From an uncultured Clostridia bacterium (GTDB lineage Bacteria; Bacillota; Clostridia; TANB77; CAG-508): 38,465 nucleotides of DNA. Below are positions 1,346 through 17,217 of the stretch, in pieces. Made by a program: the position numbers and the translations under genes. The notes beneath the pieces are model-generated. The model did no database searches. It was given only the letters and a program-made list of their open reading frames with translations, and was not told where the DNA came from. The stretch is from positions 1 through 38,465 of the forward strand of contig CALXVA010000005.1 of assembly GCA_944391835.1 (NCBI GenBank). Reading direction: 5' to 3'. Position 1 is the first letter of the stretch. Every line of letters starts with the position of its first letter.

Positions 1346-4300
1346 ATGAGTTTAAGAATTATATATGGAAAATCTGGTACTGGAAAAAGTACATATATTT
1401 GTAATGAAATAGCAGAAAAAATAAAAAATGGAAACAGAAAAATATACATAATAACTCCTGAGCAATTTTCTTTCACGGCAGAAAAGAAATTGCTTGATGC
1501 ACTAGATACATCTTCTGTTATACAGGCAGATGTACTAACTTTTAATCGTATGGCATATAGAGTAATAAAAGAAACCGGAAACAAAAATTTATCTAATTTG
1601 TCTTTAACAGGCAAGTCTATGCTAATATATAATATTCTTTCCAAAGAGAAAAATAAGCTAAAATTTATAGGCAAGTCTAACGAAAATGTAAGCTTAGTAG
1701 AAACACAAATAACAGAGTTTAAAAAGCACGGCGTTACAGTAGAAAGTCTGAAAGAGATTATAGAAAAAACAGAAGACAAATATTTGCAAACTAAACTAAC
1801 CGATATGCTAATGGTTTACGAAAAATATACTGAAAATATAAATGACAAATACATAGACGAAAACGACAATTTAAGTATTTTAGCAGATAGGCTAGACTTA
1901 GTCAAAGATTTTGATGATGCAGATATTTATATAGACGAATTTGTAGGCTTTACTCACCAAGAGTATGAAATCATAAAGAAGCTACTAGTTAAAGCAAATG
2001 AAGTAAATATAACTATTTGTACAGATAATCTTAACTTAAGCTTAAATCAAGATACAGATATTTTCTATAGCAACAAATTAACAATAGATAAACTTTATTA
2101 TATTGCAAGAGAAGAAAATGTAAAAATAGAAAAGCCTATAGTTTTAGACAAATGCTATAGATTTAAGAATAAGGAGCTAAGCCATTTAGAGGAAAATATA
2201 TATGCATTTCCATATACACAATACAGAGAAAATGTAGAAAATATAGAACTATTTTTGGCTAAAAATCAATATTCGGAAATAGAGCACGTAGCAGAAAACA
2301 TAGTAAAACTCGCAAGAGACAATGGGTATAGGTATAACCAAATTTCAGTTATAACTAAAAATCTAGATGAATATTCAAACTTATGCAAGATTATTTTTAG
2401 TAAATACAACATACCAGTATTTATTGATGAAAAAAAGGACTTTAGCCAAAATATATTAGTAAAATATATCTTATCGCTAATCAACATCTTTGCTAAGAAC
2501 TGGTCAGAAGAAAGCGTTATAGAGTATATGAAATCAGGTTTAACATCCGAAATAGATGACGATGATATATATATACTAGAAAATTATGCCTTAAGATGGG
2601 GCATAAAAGGTAATAAGTGGTATGCAAAAGAGCCTACATTTTACAACGAAACAGAAGAGGAACAAAACAAAATAATTCATATAATGGAAAAGGTAATAAA
2701 GCCATTGTTACGACTTAGAGACGAGATAATGGGAGAAAGAAACTATAAAAACATTACAGAAAAGTTATATCAGTTTTTAATAGATAATCAAATAAATGTA
2801 AAGATAAATAACGAAATAAAGCACTTAGAAGAAATTGGAGAAGTAGAAAAAGCACGAGAATATGAAACTAGTTATAAAACTGTAATAGAGCTACTGGACG
2901 AAATTGTTTCGATTTTTGGAGAGGAGAAAGTAAGCTTCGACAAATATGCAGACATTCTAAAAACGGGACTAGGAAATAGTAGCTTAGGAAAATTGCCAAG
3001 TACACAAGACCAAGTAACTGTGGGAGATGTGGATAGGTCTAGAAATCATAGTATAAAAGCTGTATTTATTATAGGACTAAATGATGGTGTTTTTCCAAGC
3101 GTCAACAAAGATGAAGGATATTTTAATGATAAAGATAGAGAAACATTAAAGCAATATGGAGCAGAACTTGCAAAAGGCACGATGGAGAAACTATATGATG
3201 ATAACTTTAACATATACAAAGCATTTTCAACAGCAGAAGAGAAAGTGTATTTATCTTATGTGTCATCTGACTTAGAGGGAAAAGGACTAAGACCATCGAT
3301 TTTAGTAAACAGAGTAAAGAAAATATATACTAAATTGCAAGAGAAAAGTGACATAATTTCAAAGCAAAGTGAAGTTATAACAGAGCTTAGTACTTTTGAG
3401 GAATTATTAGCAAACCTAGAGGCCTTTAGAGATGGAGAAGAAATAGATAAAAAATGGTTTGAAATATACAACTATTATGCAGAAAGTCCAGCGTGGAAAG
3501 AAAAATTAGAAAGCAATTTAAAAGCATTAAACTTTAGTATAAAAGCAGACAAAATTAAAAAAGAGTTGGTAGACAAGCTATATGGAAATACTCTAAAAAC
3601 TAGTATATCAAGACTAGAGCAATACAAATCTTGCCCATTTTCATACTATTTAAAATATGGACTTGACTTACAAGAAAGGCAAGAATTTAAAGTACAAGCA
3701 ATCGATACAGGAACCTTTATGCACGACGTAATAGATAGCTTTTTTGATAAAATGCAAGAAAGAGGCAGAACTGTAAAAGGCATAAGTGACGAGGAAGAAG
3801 AAGACATAGTAGACGAAATTATAGAGGAAAAGCTTGGTCTAAAAAAGAACTACATTTTCACAGGAATACCAAAATACAAAGTATTAGCTAGTAGACTAAA
3901 AAAAGTAGTAAAAAAATCTATTAGGTATATAGTATATAGTTTAAAATATAGTGACTTCGAGGTAATGGGGCACGAAATGGAATTCAAGAATGGCAAAGAA
4001 TACCCTGCAATAGAAGTTAAGCTAGATAATGGCAGAAAGGTAGAAATAACAGGAAAAATAGACAGAATTGACATTGCAAAAACCCCAGAGGGAAAATATA
4101 TAAGAATAATAGACTATAAATCATCTGCAAAAGATATTAACCTAAATGAAGTAGTAGCAGGTTTGCAATTACAACTCTTAACATATTTAGATGCAGTATG
4201 CAATATAGAAGATGTAATGCCGGCAGGAGTTCTATATTTTAACTTAATAGACCCAGTAATAAAAACAGGCAAGAACGTAACAGAGGAAAAATTGGACGAA

Positions 4301-9670: not shown

Positions 9671-10228
9671 ATGGAAAACGAATATTATAAGCCAATCGAC
9701 TATGAACTATTAGACAAGAAAACAGCATATAAAGGAAAACGAATTACAGTAGAAGAATTACACTACAAGAATCCAAGAACAGAACAAATAATATATAGGG
9801 AACACGTACTCGCTGGACACGCAGCAGTAATAATTCCAGAAACTGATGATGGTGAATTTATAATGATAAAAGAGCCACGTACGCCTATTGGAAAAACGGT
9901 TATTGCTTTTCCAGCAGGTATGATAGAAGAGGGAGAAAATTCAGAAGATGGTGCTTTAAGAGAATTAGAAGAAGAAACTGGATATAAAGCAGGAAAAATA
10001 AAGAAATTAAGAGAGGTATACCCTGCTATAGGCTATTCTAACGAAAAAGTAACTATTTTTTTAGCAAAAGAACTAGTAAAAACTCATAGACACTTAGATG
10101 AAACCGAAGATATAGATGTAATAAAGATTCCTATAACAGAAATTAAACAAATGCTAGATAATGGAGAAATAAGAACTTCTAGCGAGGAAATAGGGCTATT
10201 GCATTATTTCTTATATGAAGACAAATAA
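9671..10228 (+). CDS. Nudix hydrolase, ADP-ribose pyrophosphatase type
   Basis: The protein (185 aa) hydrolyses a nucleoside diphosphate linked to another moiety, most likely ADP-ribose to AMP and ribose 5-phosphate. The full Nudix box is visible: G83-x5-E89-x7-R97-E98-L99-x-E101-E102-x-G104-Y105. The N-terminal strands (VEELHYKNPRTEQIIYREHV) and the AFPAGMIEEGE run are typical of the ADPR-ase (NudF/YqkG) branch. The start follows ggggag at about 11 bases. It stands alone, 160 bases after UDG and 116 before the flavoprotein gene. Confidence 0.9.
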   Translation: MENEYYKPIDYELLDKKTAYKGKRITVEELHYKNPRTEQIIYREHVLAGHAAVIIPETDDGEFIMIKEPRTPIGKTVIAFPAGMIEEGENSEDGALRELEEETGYKAGKIKKLREVYPAIGYSNEKVTIFLAKELVKTHRHLDETEDIDVIKIPITEIKQMLDNGEIRTSSEEIGLLHYFLYEDK

Positions 10229-10344
10229 TAAGAATACAGAATAGAATAGTTAGTCGAATAGATTGCAATTAAATATTAATATACTATATAATAAAAAATG
10301 TTAATATAATTTTGAAGATGATAAAGAACAAGAGGTATAAAAAG

Positions 10345-11607
10345 ATGAACGAAGAAATACAGAAATATACAGAATATTGTTTAAATTGCCCAGTAAAACC
10401 ATGTAGCAATAAAGGTTGTCCATTAAATAATGACATTCCAGCTTTTATAAAACAGGTTAAAGAGGGAAATGTAAAAGAAGCATATAAAATATTATCCAAA
10501 ACCACAGTGCTTGGCAGTGTTTGTGGAAGAATATGCCCACACATGAAACAATGTGAAGGAAGTTGTGTAAGAGGTATAAAAGGCGAGCCAGTTAATATCG
10601 GAAAAATAGAGGCTTACGTTTTTGATGAAGCTTTAAAAAATGAATGGTATAAAGAAATAGAAAAAACAAATGAATTAAAAGGAAAAACTGTAGCAGTAAT
10701 AGGTGGTGGTCCAGCAGGACTTACATGTGCTAGTTTCGTAGCAAGAAGAGGAGCAAAGGTAGTTATATACGAAAAATATAATCATCTTGGAGGAATATTA
10801 GAGCACGGAATACCAGAATTTAGACTAGATAAAGACGTATTAGAAAAAACTATTAAATCAATTTTAAATGAAGGTATACTTGATATTAGTGTAGAATATG
10901 GCAAAGAATTGGGCAAAAACTTGAGCTTAGACGAGTTAGAAAATAAATATGATGCTATATTCTTAGGATTTGGTGCAAATATACCATCTAAAATGAATAT
11001 AGAAGGAGAAGAGCTAAATGGAGTATTTGGAGGAAATAGTTTATTAGAAACAAGGAAGCATCCATCATATACAGGTAAAAAAGTTGCTGTAATAGGTGGA
11101 GGAAATGTAGCAATGGACTGTGCTAGAACTATAAAAAGAATGGGCGCAGATAAGGTATTTGTAATATATAGAAGAGCAGAAAAACAAATGCCAGCAGAAA
11201 GAAAAGAAATAGAAGAGGCAAAAAAGGAAGGAGTAGAATTCTTATTCCAAAACAATATTGTGAAGATACTTGGAAATGAAAAAGTAGAAAAGGTAGAGTG
11301 CATTAAAACAGAATTGGTAAAAAAAGAAGGAGAGACAAGAGAAGTACCAGTAAATATAGACGGAAGCAATTACGAGTTAGATATGGATTATGTGGTGATG
11401 GCAGTAGGTTCAAGTCCAGAAAAAGATGTTGTTGATTCACTAGGACTAGAGTTAAATAAATGGGGATACATAAAAGTAGATGAAAGCCATAGAACATCAA
11501 AAGAAAAAATATATGCAGGTGGAGATTTAGCAGGAGACAAAGGGACTGTGGCTTGGGCAGCAAGAGCAGGAAGAGATGTGGCAGAAGCCGTGGACAAAAG
11601 GCAGTAG
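10345..11607 (+). CDS. GltD/NfnB-like NAD(P)-dependent flavoprotein oxidoreductase
   Basis: This family covers the glutamate synthase small subunit, NfnB and sulfide dehydrogenase subunits; all pass electrons between NAD(P)H, FAD and Fe-S clusters. The N-terminal region has cysteine sets (YCLNCPVKPCSNKGCPLNN and SVCGRICPHMKQCEGSCVRG) for Fe-S binding. Next come an FAD Rossmann motif, VAVIGGGPAGLTCASF, and an NAD(P)-binding VAVIGGGNVAMDCART with VFVIYRRAEKQMPA. The C-terminal AGGDLAGDKGTVAWAARAG closes the FAD site. I take ATG 10345 (agaggt upstream, 420 aa) over the TTG at 10312. The usual partner subunit (GltB or NfnA) is not adjacent, so the electron partner is unknown. Confidence 0.85.
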   Translation: MNEEIQKYTEYCLNCPVKPCSNKGCPLNNDIPAFIKQVKEGNVKEAYKILSKTTVLGSVCGRICPHMKQCEGSCVRGIKGEPVNIGKIEAYVFDEALKNEWYKEIEKTNELKGKTVAVIGGGPAGLTCASFVARRGAKVVIYEKYNHLGGILEHGIPEFRLDKDVLEKTIKSILNEGILDISVEYGKELGKNLSLDELENKYDAIFLGFGANIPSKMNIEGEELNGVFGGNSLLETRKHPSYTGKKVAVIGGGNVAMDCARTIKRMGADKVFVIYRRAEKQMPAERKEIEEAKKEGVEFLFQNNIVKILGNEKVEKVECIKTELVKKEGETREVPVNIDGSNYELDMDYVVMAVGSSPEKDVVDSLGLELNKWGYIKVDESHRTSKEKIYAGGDLAGDKGTVAWAARAGRDVAEAVDKRQ

Positions 11608-11630
11608 TCCCTTTTGTCCACAATTTTACT
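11590..11630. terminator. Hairpin terminator between converging genes
   Basis: gtggacaaaagg (11590-11601) pairs with ccttttgtccac (11610-11621) over an eight-base loop, and aattttactt follows. The left arm contains coding sequence and the loop contains the stop codon of the flavoprotein gene. The minus-strand gene ends at 11626. Confidence 0.65.
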
Positions 11631-12702
11631 TGCTTAATTCAACATTTGCAGTTAAAATTGCTTTAACTTTTCTAAAGAATTTAGCAATTTTAGAATTGCT
11701 TACAACTGTCAAATTAGTATTATTTATAATTTTTTCGTATTTAGCATCTAAATCCATCATCTTATTTATATAAAACTCATTGAATTCAGAGTAATCATCA
11801 GAAATGCCAATATAATTTTTATAATTATATAGTCGTAATCTATATTCATCAATGTCTGCTGTAGTTAAAATTTTATTAAATTGAGTATTAAAGAATGATG
11901 TAAATATTAGTTTTTGTGTTTCAAAGAATATTTCTTTGATTTTTTTCTTGTAATTCTCCACTTTTTTAGCAACCTTTTGAGACTTCATAACCTCTAATTC
12001 ATCGTACATTAGTTTATTATTAAGCTTAATTGCTTTTTCTTCGGCTTCCATTATTTTGTCCATATTACTTTCTATTTTTAATAGACTATCAACTCCACAT
12101 AAATTGGCAAATTTCTCTTTAAATACAGATGAACCATAAAATGTGCTATCATACAATGCCTCTTCACCTGTAATGTATGCCATTTGTGCCACTAAATTAC
12201 ATAAAATTGGATAATATGATGGACTAATTGTTGGAAGTGATATACCATAATATTTAACAATTTCTTGTTCAGTATTAAGTGCTTTAGAAGCCATATATTG
12301 TACAGCACCTTCATTTAATGCCATACCACATATTTTTAATTCGCCAAAATCACATAAGCCTAATCTTACTAAATGACCTTTTTTATCTTTAATTTCTTGC
12401 AAATAATGAATAAATTCGTGTACTGCAAATTTTTCTAATTCCTCTATTTTAAGACCTTGTTTAAAATACATAGAAGAATTCTTATAAAAATATGTTGCTT
12501 CTGCAAATCCTTCAGGAATATCTGCTATATACATTGGTATTCTAGATAATGCTATAAATAGATTTTGAAATATAAAATTTTGATTAGGGAAAGCTTTGCA
12601 TAGCTTCTCTGCAATATCTCTAGATATTGAATTTACACTTAATGTGTCTAACTTGCCTACTACTGTAATACCATCCTTTTTTAAATCTGATTCTATACTC
12701 AT
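11626..12702 (-). CDS. Putative HExxH zinc metallopeptidase, family unknown
   Basis: The 358-residue protein (from ATG 12702, ten bases after aaggag) matches no family I can name. Around residues 92-104 it has FAVHEFIHYLQEI, an HExxH zinc motif (H95, E96, H99). Some 30 residues later, at about 127-137, comes MALNEGAVQYMAS, where E131 could be the third zinc ligand of a gluzincin-like site. Hydrophobic character, a YYGI..PTISPSYYP stretch and a helical charged segment (240-280) follow. There is no signal peptide or clear transmembrane helix, so it is probably cytoplasmic. It lies downstream of leuS but is separated from it by two hairpins. Confidence 0.7.
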   Translation of the reverse strand: MSIESDLKKDGITVVGKLDTLSVNSISRDIAEKLCKAFPNQNFIFQNLFIALSRIPMYIADIPEGFAEATYFYKNSSMYFKQGLKIEELEKFAVHEFIHYLQEIKDKKGHLVRLGLCDFGELKICGMALNEGAVQYMASKALNTEQEIVKYYGISLPTISPSYYPILCNLVAQMAYITGEEALYDSTFYGSSVFKEKFANLCGVDSLLKIESNMDKIMEAEEKAIKLNNKLMYDELEVMKSQKVAKKVENYKKKIKEIFFETQKLIFTSFFNTQFNKILTTADIDEYRLRLYNYKNYIGISDDYSEFNEFYINKMMDLDAKYEKIINNTNLTVVSNSKIAKFFRKVKAILTANVELSK

Positions 12703-16053: not shown

Positions 16054-16077
16054 AGTATACATAAATAAATTCAAAAC

Positions 16078-16106
16078 TTGCAAAATACAAGAAAATGTGG
16101 TATTAT
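16078..16106 (+). promoter_or_regulatory. Promoter of the SUMF1-fold gene
   Basis: TTGCAA (16078-16083) and TATTAT (16101-16106) with 17-base spacing precede a 65-base leader. The leader contains a small stem (ctgtc-aata-gacag) and a strong aaggagg ribosome site. Confidence 0.6.
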
Positions 16107-16171
16107 TAGTACACTGTCAATAGACAGATGTTGAGACCGTTATAACATCATCACATAAGGAGGTATACACT

Positions 16172-17125
16172 ATGAAACGGTATGAAAAATTTGTGCTTGA
16201 GGCAGAAAAAGGTATAACCTTTGAAGTCTCAGAGGGAATAAGAGGAGAATTAATTATCAGAGCTCGGAATATTGCTACAACTGAAGCTTTAGCGAAAACA
16301 AGAGAAGAGTCAATTACAAAAGCTCTGAATGTTGCTACAGCCAATAACTATGTAAATCCTCCAATTCCAGAAGGATACAAGCATGTTTGTGGCAAATGGA
16401 ACAATGGCTTTGTAATTGAAAGAGATTCTGATGGAAGCCAGTTTGTATGGGTACCTGTTGGAAGTCTCGACTCTAACGGAACACTTGATGGAGAACATTT
16501 TTCGCAGAAATTCGGCAGACGAAATTACATGAAGGATGAATTTTCGTATGATGAATTCAATGAAGTTTTAAATGGTGAACTGCTTGAACAACTTGAAAGT
16601 GTCAAAAAGTACGGAGGATTTTATATTTCTCGATATAATATTTCCAAGAGTTCAGCAGGAAAACCACAGTCGGTCAAAGGAGTTATGCCGTGGGTAAACA
16701 TCAATTTTGATGATGCCAAGAAGATTGCATCCACTATCGAAGACAATGAAGCAGTTAAAAGTCATCTGACTTTTGGTGCAGAATATGATTCTGTACTGGA
16801 ATGGTTTATCAAAACAGAAGTTAAAACTCTTGCTGAAATTGCAGAGGACTCTGCTGAATGGGGCAATCATTGTAATACAGAGAATTCTCCAAAGAAAGTA
16901 GTTGAAACAGGAAGCAGAGAAAAATGGTGTGCTAATAACATCTGCGACTTTGCAGGTAATGTGGATGAATGGACACAAGAACAGAACGAAAGTTCGTATC
17001 GCGTTATCCGTGGTGGCAGTTACGACCTTTATGGGTACAATTGTCCTGTCGCCTATCGTGGTTACGACAATCCTGGTGAAGTCTTTGACGACACTGGTTT
17101 TCGTGCTGCTCTTTACATTAAGTAA
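16172..17125 (+). CDS. Formylglycine-generating-enzyme (SUMF1) fold protein; candidate DGR target
   Basis: The 317-residue protein starts with a Lys/Glu-rich segment (about 1-55). From about residue 60 it has the FGE-sulfatase/SUMF1 fold, a C-type-lectin-like fold: SQFVWVPVGSL (about 89-99), YGGFYISRYNIS (about 148-159), ICDFAGNVDEWTQE (about 255-268), YRVIRGGSY (276-284) and a closing DTGFRAALYIK. This fold serves both as enzyme and as the variable ligand-binding protein of diversity-generating retroelements. No signal peptide is visible. The gene uses cgt/cgc/cgg for arginine and many g/c-ending codons, unlike its aga-rich neighbours, which suggests horizontal acquisition. It has its own promoter and terminator. 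Enzymatic FGE activity is doubtful, since I cannot place the paired active-site cysteines. Confidence 0.8.
   Translation: MKRYEKFVLEAEKGITFEVSEGIRGELIIRARNIATTEALAKTREESITKALNVATANNYVNPPIPEGYKHVCGKWNNGFVIERDSDGSQFVWVPVGSLDSNGTLDGEHFSQKFGRRNYMKDEFSYDEFNEVLNGELLEQLESVKKYGGFYISRYNISKSSAGKPQSVKGVMPWVNINFDDAKKIASTIEDNEAVKSHLTFGAEYDSVLEWFIKTEVKTLAEIAEDSAEWGNHCNTENSPKKVVETGSREKWCANNICDFAGNVDEWTQEQNESSYRVIRGGSYDLYGYNCPVAYRGYDNPGEVFDDTGFRAALYIK
16994..17122 (+). other. Candidate DGR variable region (3' end of the SUMF1-fold gene)
   Basis: The end of the gene (residues 275-317) has the layout of DGR variable regions. A constant RVIRGGS block comes first, then codons 284-307 with scattered Tyr, Asp, Gly, Asn, Leu, Val and Phe, then constant DTGFRAA. 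Of those 24 codons, 22 end in C or T, as expected if template AAC/AAT codons were changed at their adenines. Local GC is visibly higher than in the rest of the window, and arginine is always cgt or cgc. No second copy (template repeat) and no reverse transcriptase lie in the window. Confidence 0.5.
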
Positions 17126-17172
17126 CTACGCGTATACTGTTAAAGTATTATAATTTGTTCCCAAACACAGAT

Positions 17173-17217
17173 AGAAGGAGAGAACTTTGAAATTTCGGGT
17201 TCTCTCTTTCTTTTGAT
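17173..17217 (+). terminator. Terminator after the SUMF1-fold gene
   Basis: agagaac (17179-17185) pairs with gttctct (17199-17205) and is followed by a T-rich tail (ctttcttttg). It lies about 50 bases after the stop codon. Confidence 0.65.

Follow-up and report, generated by a model that had tools for sequence, protein, structure and literature searches.

Does a gene that ends like the target of a diversity-generating retroelement (DGR), and that stands apart from any reverse transcriptase (RT) or template repeat (TR), derive from such a system, and is it still being diversified? The question is raised by a gene encoding 317 amino acids (positions 16172–17125, forward strand) in a 38,465-nucleotide stretch of DNA from an uncultured Clostridia bacterium, here called the window. 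The original prediction described its C-terminal end as rich in codons ending in C or T (NNY), with arginine always encoded by CGT or CGC, and as less AT-rich than its surroundings, and this description is accurate. Codons 284–307 include 22 NNY codons out of 24 (the exceptions are GGG and GAA; binomial P = 2.6 × 10⁻⁷), a count unmatched in 9,042 stretches of 24 codons taken from the window's other genes, where the maximum is 20. The four arginine codons of the C-terminal region (277, 280, 296 and 311) are CGC or CGT, and elsewhere in the gene arginine is encoded by AGA, CGA and CGG. The G+C content is 47% at positions 16994–17122, compared with 38% for the gene body and 30% for the window. 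The predicted SUMF1 fold was likewise borne out, in that the C-terminal, C-type-lectin-like domain matches the FGE-sulfatase family PF03781 at 27.5 bits, above the Pfam gathering cut-off of 23.3. A profile match to the SUMF2 structure 1y4j is weak (E = 0.0064).

Orthologues that are 79–82% identical sit in complete DGR cassettes in other Clostridia genomes. The homologues come from named GTDB genomes, all of them MAGs that, with few exceptions, carry the label uncultured Clostridia, Clostridium or Clostridiaceae. At eight loci (L131, L132, L134, L136, L137, L139, L140 and L156), target, Avd, RT and TR follow one another in this order over about 2.5 kb, with an A-rich near-copy of the variable region (VR) lying roughly 1.6 kb downstream of the gene. 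The L132 cassette, for example, comprises the target at 10001–10906, Avd at 11016–11384, RT at 11377–12390 and TR at about 12400–12545. The cassette Avd is recognised by PF22296 and by the PHROG family 'Avd protein of DGR', and its score against NF033474 (78.6 bits) falls slightly below the cut-off of 80. The RT matches RVT_1 and carries the motifs GNYTSQ (GNxTSQ) and YMDD (YxDD). Near the cassette, reading of the open reading frames (ORFs) points to a relaxase of the MobV type and a serine recombinase, which suggests that the cassettes travel on mobilizable elements.

The window VR aligns without gaps to the L132 TR over 120 bp (16993–17112, forward strand), and differs from it at 21 of the 39 template adenines as against 5 of the 81 other bases (Fisher p = 1.1 × 10⁻⁸). 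Cassette VRs compared with the same TR differ at 17 of 39 adenines and 0 of 81 other bases (L132) or at 22 of 39 and 1 of 81 (L136 and L140 alike). One template, that of L137, reads SYRVIRGGNYNNNGNNYPVAYRNYNNPNNNYNNTSF where the other templates encode TGF. The near-copy that the original prediction proposed to seek, distinguished by changes at template adenines and adjacent to an RT, is present at the eight loci in the genomes of relatives. The variable region that it had placed at 16994–17122 stands, and the bounds are corrected to the template-aligned 16993–17112.

Comparison of alleles among 23 orthologues locates nearly all variability at AAY-derived codons. Mean entropy is 2.9 bits at the 14 template asparagine sites and 0.45 bits at sites of the same region that are neither N nor Y in the template, and template N or Y sites account for 16 of the 20 most variable protein columns beyond residue 59. 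Measured against G003 or L132, the window gene has an excess of third-codon-position changes outside the VR and of first- and second-position changes inside it. In the closest cassette pairs, VR divergence is 8–12 times body divergence. Many FGE-domain proteins occur without any DGR, and the genome that carries the window gene contains no TR, as would be expected of an ordinary acquired FGE-domain gene whose C terminus became NNY-rich by chance. Such an origin is nevertheless extremely improbable, and is refuted already by the TRs physically linked to the orthologues, to which the mismatch is restricted to adenines and whose asparagine codons coincide with the entropy peaks. Because this restriction, the entropy peaks and the reversed codon-position excess together form the signature of a DGR, we consider the DGR origin settled: by its sequence, 16993–17112 is the variable region of a DGR target.

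The machinery itself is missing from the host assembly. No RT gene is found among the ORFs inspected around the target, and a genome-wide RT search gives no match on the same contig, as the original prediction had stated for the window. The gene has no TR in its own assembly and no linked RT or Avd, and is followed by adhE. In the assembly, which is 97% complete and fragmented into 140 contigs, blastn finds no second copy of the VR. Both an adenine-tolerant pattern run on 30 congeneric genomes and a protein query with N at the variable sites recover only the VRs themselves or the TRs and VRs of other DGRs, and a search with the real TR finds none in the host genome or in its three closest relatives (G020, G029 and G003). 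The only RT of the assembly, on contig C33, belongs to another lineage: it shares 35% identity with the cognate RT and 54% with that of a different DGR in G003. It was rejected as a server of the target, given this closer relationship and the lack of any TR/VR pair in 10.4 kb of contig C33. We also found no relatives in phage records or IMG/VR, and a phage origin of the target is unsupported.

Two sister species (G020 and G029) carry the gene at the same locus, in the order leuS, tadA, gene, adhE. Active diversification should make VR alleles differ between such close relatives. However, the window VR differs from theirs at 1 of 130 bases, whereas the gene bodies differ at 17 and 21 of 821 bases (2.1–2.6%). 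Cassette-borne pairs of matching body distance (14–17 of about 773 bases) differ at 24–28 of 130 VR bases (18–21%). The VR is thus nearly identical in three species despite body divergence, and therefore undergoes no appreciable diversification at present. The IMH-like 3′ end of the VR (17093–17112, forward strand) reads ACTGGTTTTCGTGCTGCTCT against the active-cassette consensus ACTGGTTTTCGTGCCACGCT in an alignment of 31 copies, so that the window copy is off consensus, and the last bases are GTGCTGCTCT in the window, G020 and G029 versus GTGCCACGCT in the cassettes. A GC-rich end of this kind and a hairpin downstream of it are found in nearly all copies. Taken together, these sequence comparisons indicate that the gene is very probably a solo, frozen former DGR target. 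The freezing may be fairly recent, because only 5 non-adenine VR changes are counted, a number that also tempers the frozen reading and that is measured against a distant template.

The original prediction of a remote target, served by a DGR elsewhere in the genome, is not upheld by this assembly. The main doubt about the frozen state is that a cassette could be missing from the host and sister MAGs, because the assembly is fragmented and TR/VR repeats break assemblies. The gene might then still be diversified in trans by a cognate RT and TR on a mobile element that the assembly missed. Cassettes are carried by elements that encode a MobV relaxase and a serine recombinase, which fits this scheme, as do the division of the assembly over its many contigs and the presence of a solo target (L141) together with a cassette (L160) in one MAG. 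However, the agreement of the VR to within one base across three species, the lack of a TR match in four genomes and the altered IMH-like end all argue against it. Furthermore, the L141 VR fits the template of its own MAG no better (5 of 82 non-adenine differences) than it fits the L132 TR (1 of 81). Diversification in trans is therefore improbable.

The target gene has recurrent borders. Homology detected by blastn with about 25 loci in unrelated contexts starts near position 16072 and stops near 17214, directly before a predicted sigma-A-like promoter (TTGCAA-N17-TATTAT, 16078–16106, forward strand; conserved in about 20 aligned 5′ flanks) and directly after a hairpin, GAGAGAAC...GTTCTCTC, that is followed by a T-run (17178–17206, forward strand). 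This hairpin, a putative terminator and/or DGR target hairpin, is kept at the same place in nearly all copies. Most pairs of copies have borders 80–120 bp before the start codon and 75–120 bp past the end of the gene, and the exceptions are pairs that share an element or flank. In related genomes the site is empty: the gene is absent from the leuS-tadA-adhE order of G007, G018 and others, and tadA and adhE are adjacent without it in G004. Many other copies have no RT or TR in the flanking sequence examined, several of them being cut by contig ends. This recurrence in other genomic contexts suggests that the target is part of a bordered solo unit comprising promoter, gene and terminator (about 16072–17214, forward strand).

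How the unit came to stand alone is a sub-question within the frozen-target explanation, and two readings stand: a unit that moves by itself, or one left behind by decaying cassettes. It is a serious possibility, if short of an even one, that a complete cassette inserted between tadA and adhE and then lost avd, RT and TR by deletion, with no separate arrival of the target unit. A copy with an Avd-like start downstream of the target and no RT or TR match within 2 kb (L138) speaks for this course. In the window, however, homology breaks off directly past the terminator hairpin and nothing of Avd remains there, and this same right border is found in many solo copies that are independent of one another. 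Also less likely than not, and offered tentatively, is a broader proposal that solo DGR-target units of gut Clostridia spread by insertion independently of DGR machinery, as satellites that would be fixed singly or re-diversified in trans when a mobilizable element with RT and TR enters the cell.

Several copies show further arrangements. Three target copies lie in tandem at L145:8970–12154, every one of them having a VR and a terminator hairpin of its own, with no RT or TR match in 19.9 kb. Contig C29 of G003 (L087, 5378–6154 and 11622–12056) holds two partial copies, one lacking the N terminus and one cut by the contig end. At the 5′ end of the gene, codon 3 is CGG (ATG AAA CGG TAT, 16172–16183) in 28 copies, CGG making up about 0.06% of codons. 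In nearly all copies, the sequence ACCGTT (16136–16141), complementary to AACGGT of codons 2–4, is kept about 35 bases upstream. A 5′ hairpin between these two segments was rejected, as its folding is no stabler than that of shuffled sequences (z = 0.32), and no RNA element above threshold was found in Rfam around the target gene.

Other DGRs with targets of the FGE type abound in the genus. In G001, G005, G006, G007, G009 and G029, TR/VR pairs differ by 11–26 adenine changes and 0–1 others, and further DGRs are present in G003 and G013. In G009 (L098), 32 matches to the target protein, many with VR-like ends, accompany at least one TR/RT locus, possibly representing one DGR with very many targets. 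An extra base (CGTGGGCGGTAATTAC) occurs in the RGG motif of the VR of three FGE-type targets of other DGRs, L085 (TR 3524–3658, VR 1213–1347), L091 (contig C70 of the host genome) and L097. The extra base is also present in the templates of L085 and L097; for the C70 target, which has a prepilin-like start, no template was found.

An oddity unrelated to the DGR target is seen in the RT of the host genome, among other genes, where ATT CGG TTG is read as IGCMTSQ. At in-frame CGG codons, +1 shifts interrupt genes whose homologues are intact, and the +1 frame resumes at GGN (Gly). Breaks were noted in L009:9265–10192 (reverse strand; host contig C33), L085, L091, L095, L097, L131, L136, L138, L141, L142, L150, L154 and L159. 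The Walker A motif of an ABC ATPase in L150 (TCA CGG TAA) is read as GSGKST, and L085, L095 and L097 share a break site near the RT C terminus. Across the GTDB loci, 15 of 70 in-frame CGG codons preceded by more than 80 open codons close in frame and stay open in the +1 frame, compared with 0.7% for all codons; in other genes, DGR targets included, CGG reads through in frame. One explanation may be that CGG is poorly decoded and provokes a +1 shift. Among 25 tRNA genes found in the host genome (L197–L221), the arginine anticodons are ACG, CCT and TCT, with no CGG-reading CCG or TCG, an absence that is only suggestive as the tRNA set is incomplete, with several amino acids missing. A literature search found no paper on +1 frame breaks at CGG.

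In the BPP-1-type DGR of a Bordetella phage (target, Avd, TR and RT), as in the window gene, the target is C-type-lectin-like, carries its VR at the 3′ end and departs from a TR specifically at adenines, and an Avd and a GNxTSQ RT are linked to it, for the window gene only in relatives. The window copy itself, however, has no TR, Avd or RT, and its VR has stopped changing. Multi-target or remote-target DGRs such as that of Treponema denticola TvpA (PMC4891356) likewise have a target away from the RT and a C-type-lectin-like VR domain, the scaffold on which DGR targets usually carry their VR (PMC8144416). In contrast to these, the genome assembly of the window has no matching TR, and sister species share one fixed solo copy, which takes the form of a bordered unit.

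The history that best explains these observations begins with the arrangement found in relatives, where the target precedes avd, a DGR-type RT and a TR on a mobilizable element. In such cassettes, error-prone copying of the template RNA at adenines would yield cDNA that replaces the VR, generating variants of a C-type-lectin-like binding surface. Adenine-error copying with VR replacement is the known mechanism of DGRs, and what is observed here is its sequence signature. The window species and its two sisters share an ancestor in which a promoter-to-terminator copy of the target would have ended up between tadA and adhE, with none of the machinery. From then on, the VR would have drifted as ordinary DNA does, with one variant kept and presumably in use as a fixed binding protein.

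Although the protein resembles the FGE/SUMF1–SUMF2 fold, its one VR cysteine (Cys 291), set against the catalytic cysteine pair of an FGE enzyme, occupies a variable site, so that an FGE-type catalytic role seems unlikely. Because this sole VR cysteine varies among orthologues and no signal peptide is recognisable by eye, ligand binding is a better guess than catalysis. An AlphaFold model computed with 23 orthologues was discarded as unusable, its mean pLDDT being 41.

Surveys of DGRs seek a TR and an RT beside the target, and solo targets are overlooked because this adjacency is required; Roux et al. 2021 (PMC8144416) note that their search misses remote targets. Here orthologues in other genomes made it possible to tie an orphan VR, spotted from raw sequence alone, to its template, and the frozen state of that VR could be gauged against actively varied copies of equal evolutionary distance. 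If the reading as a bordered unit is true, hypervariable binding proteins would travel apart from the machine that diversifies them, and bacteria could fix a single variant as an ordinary gene.
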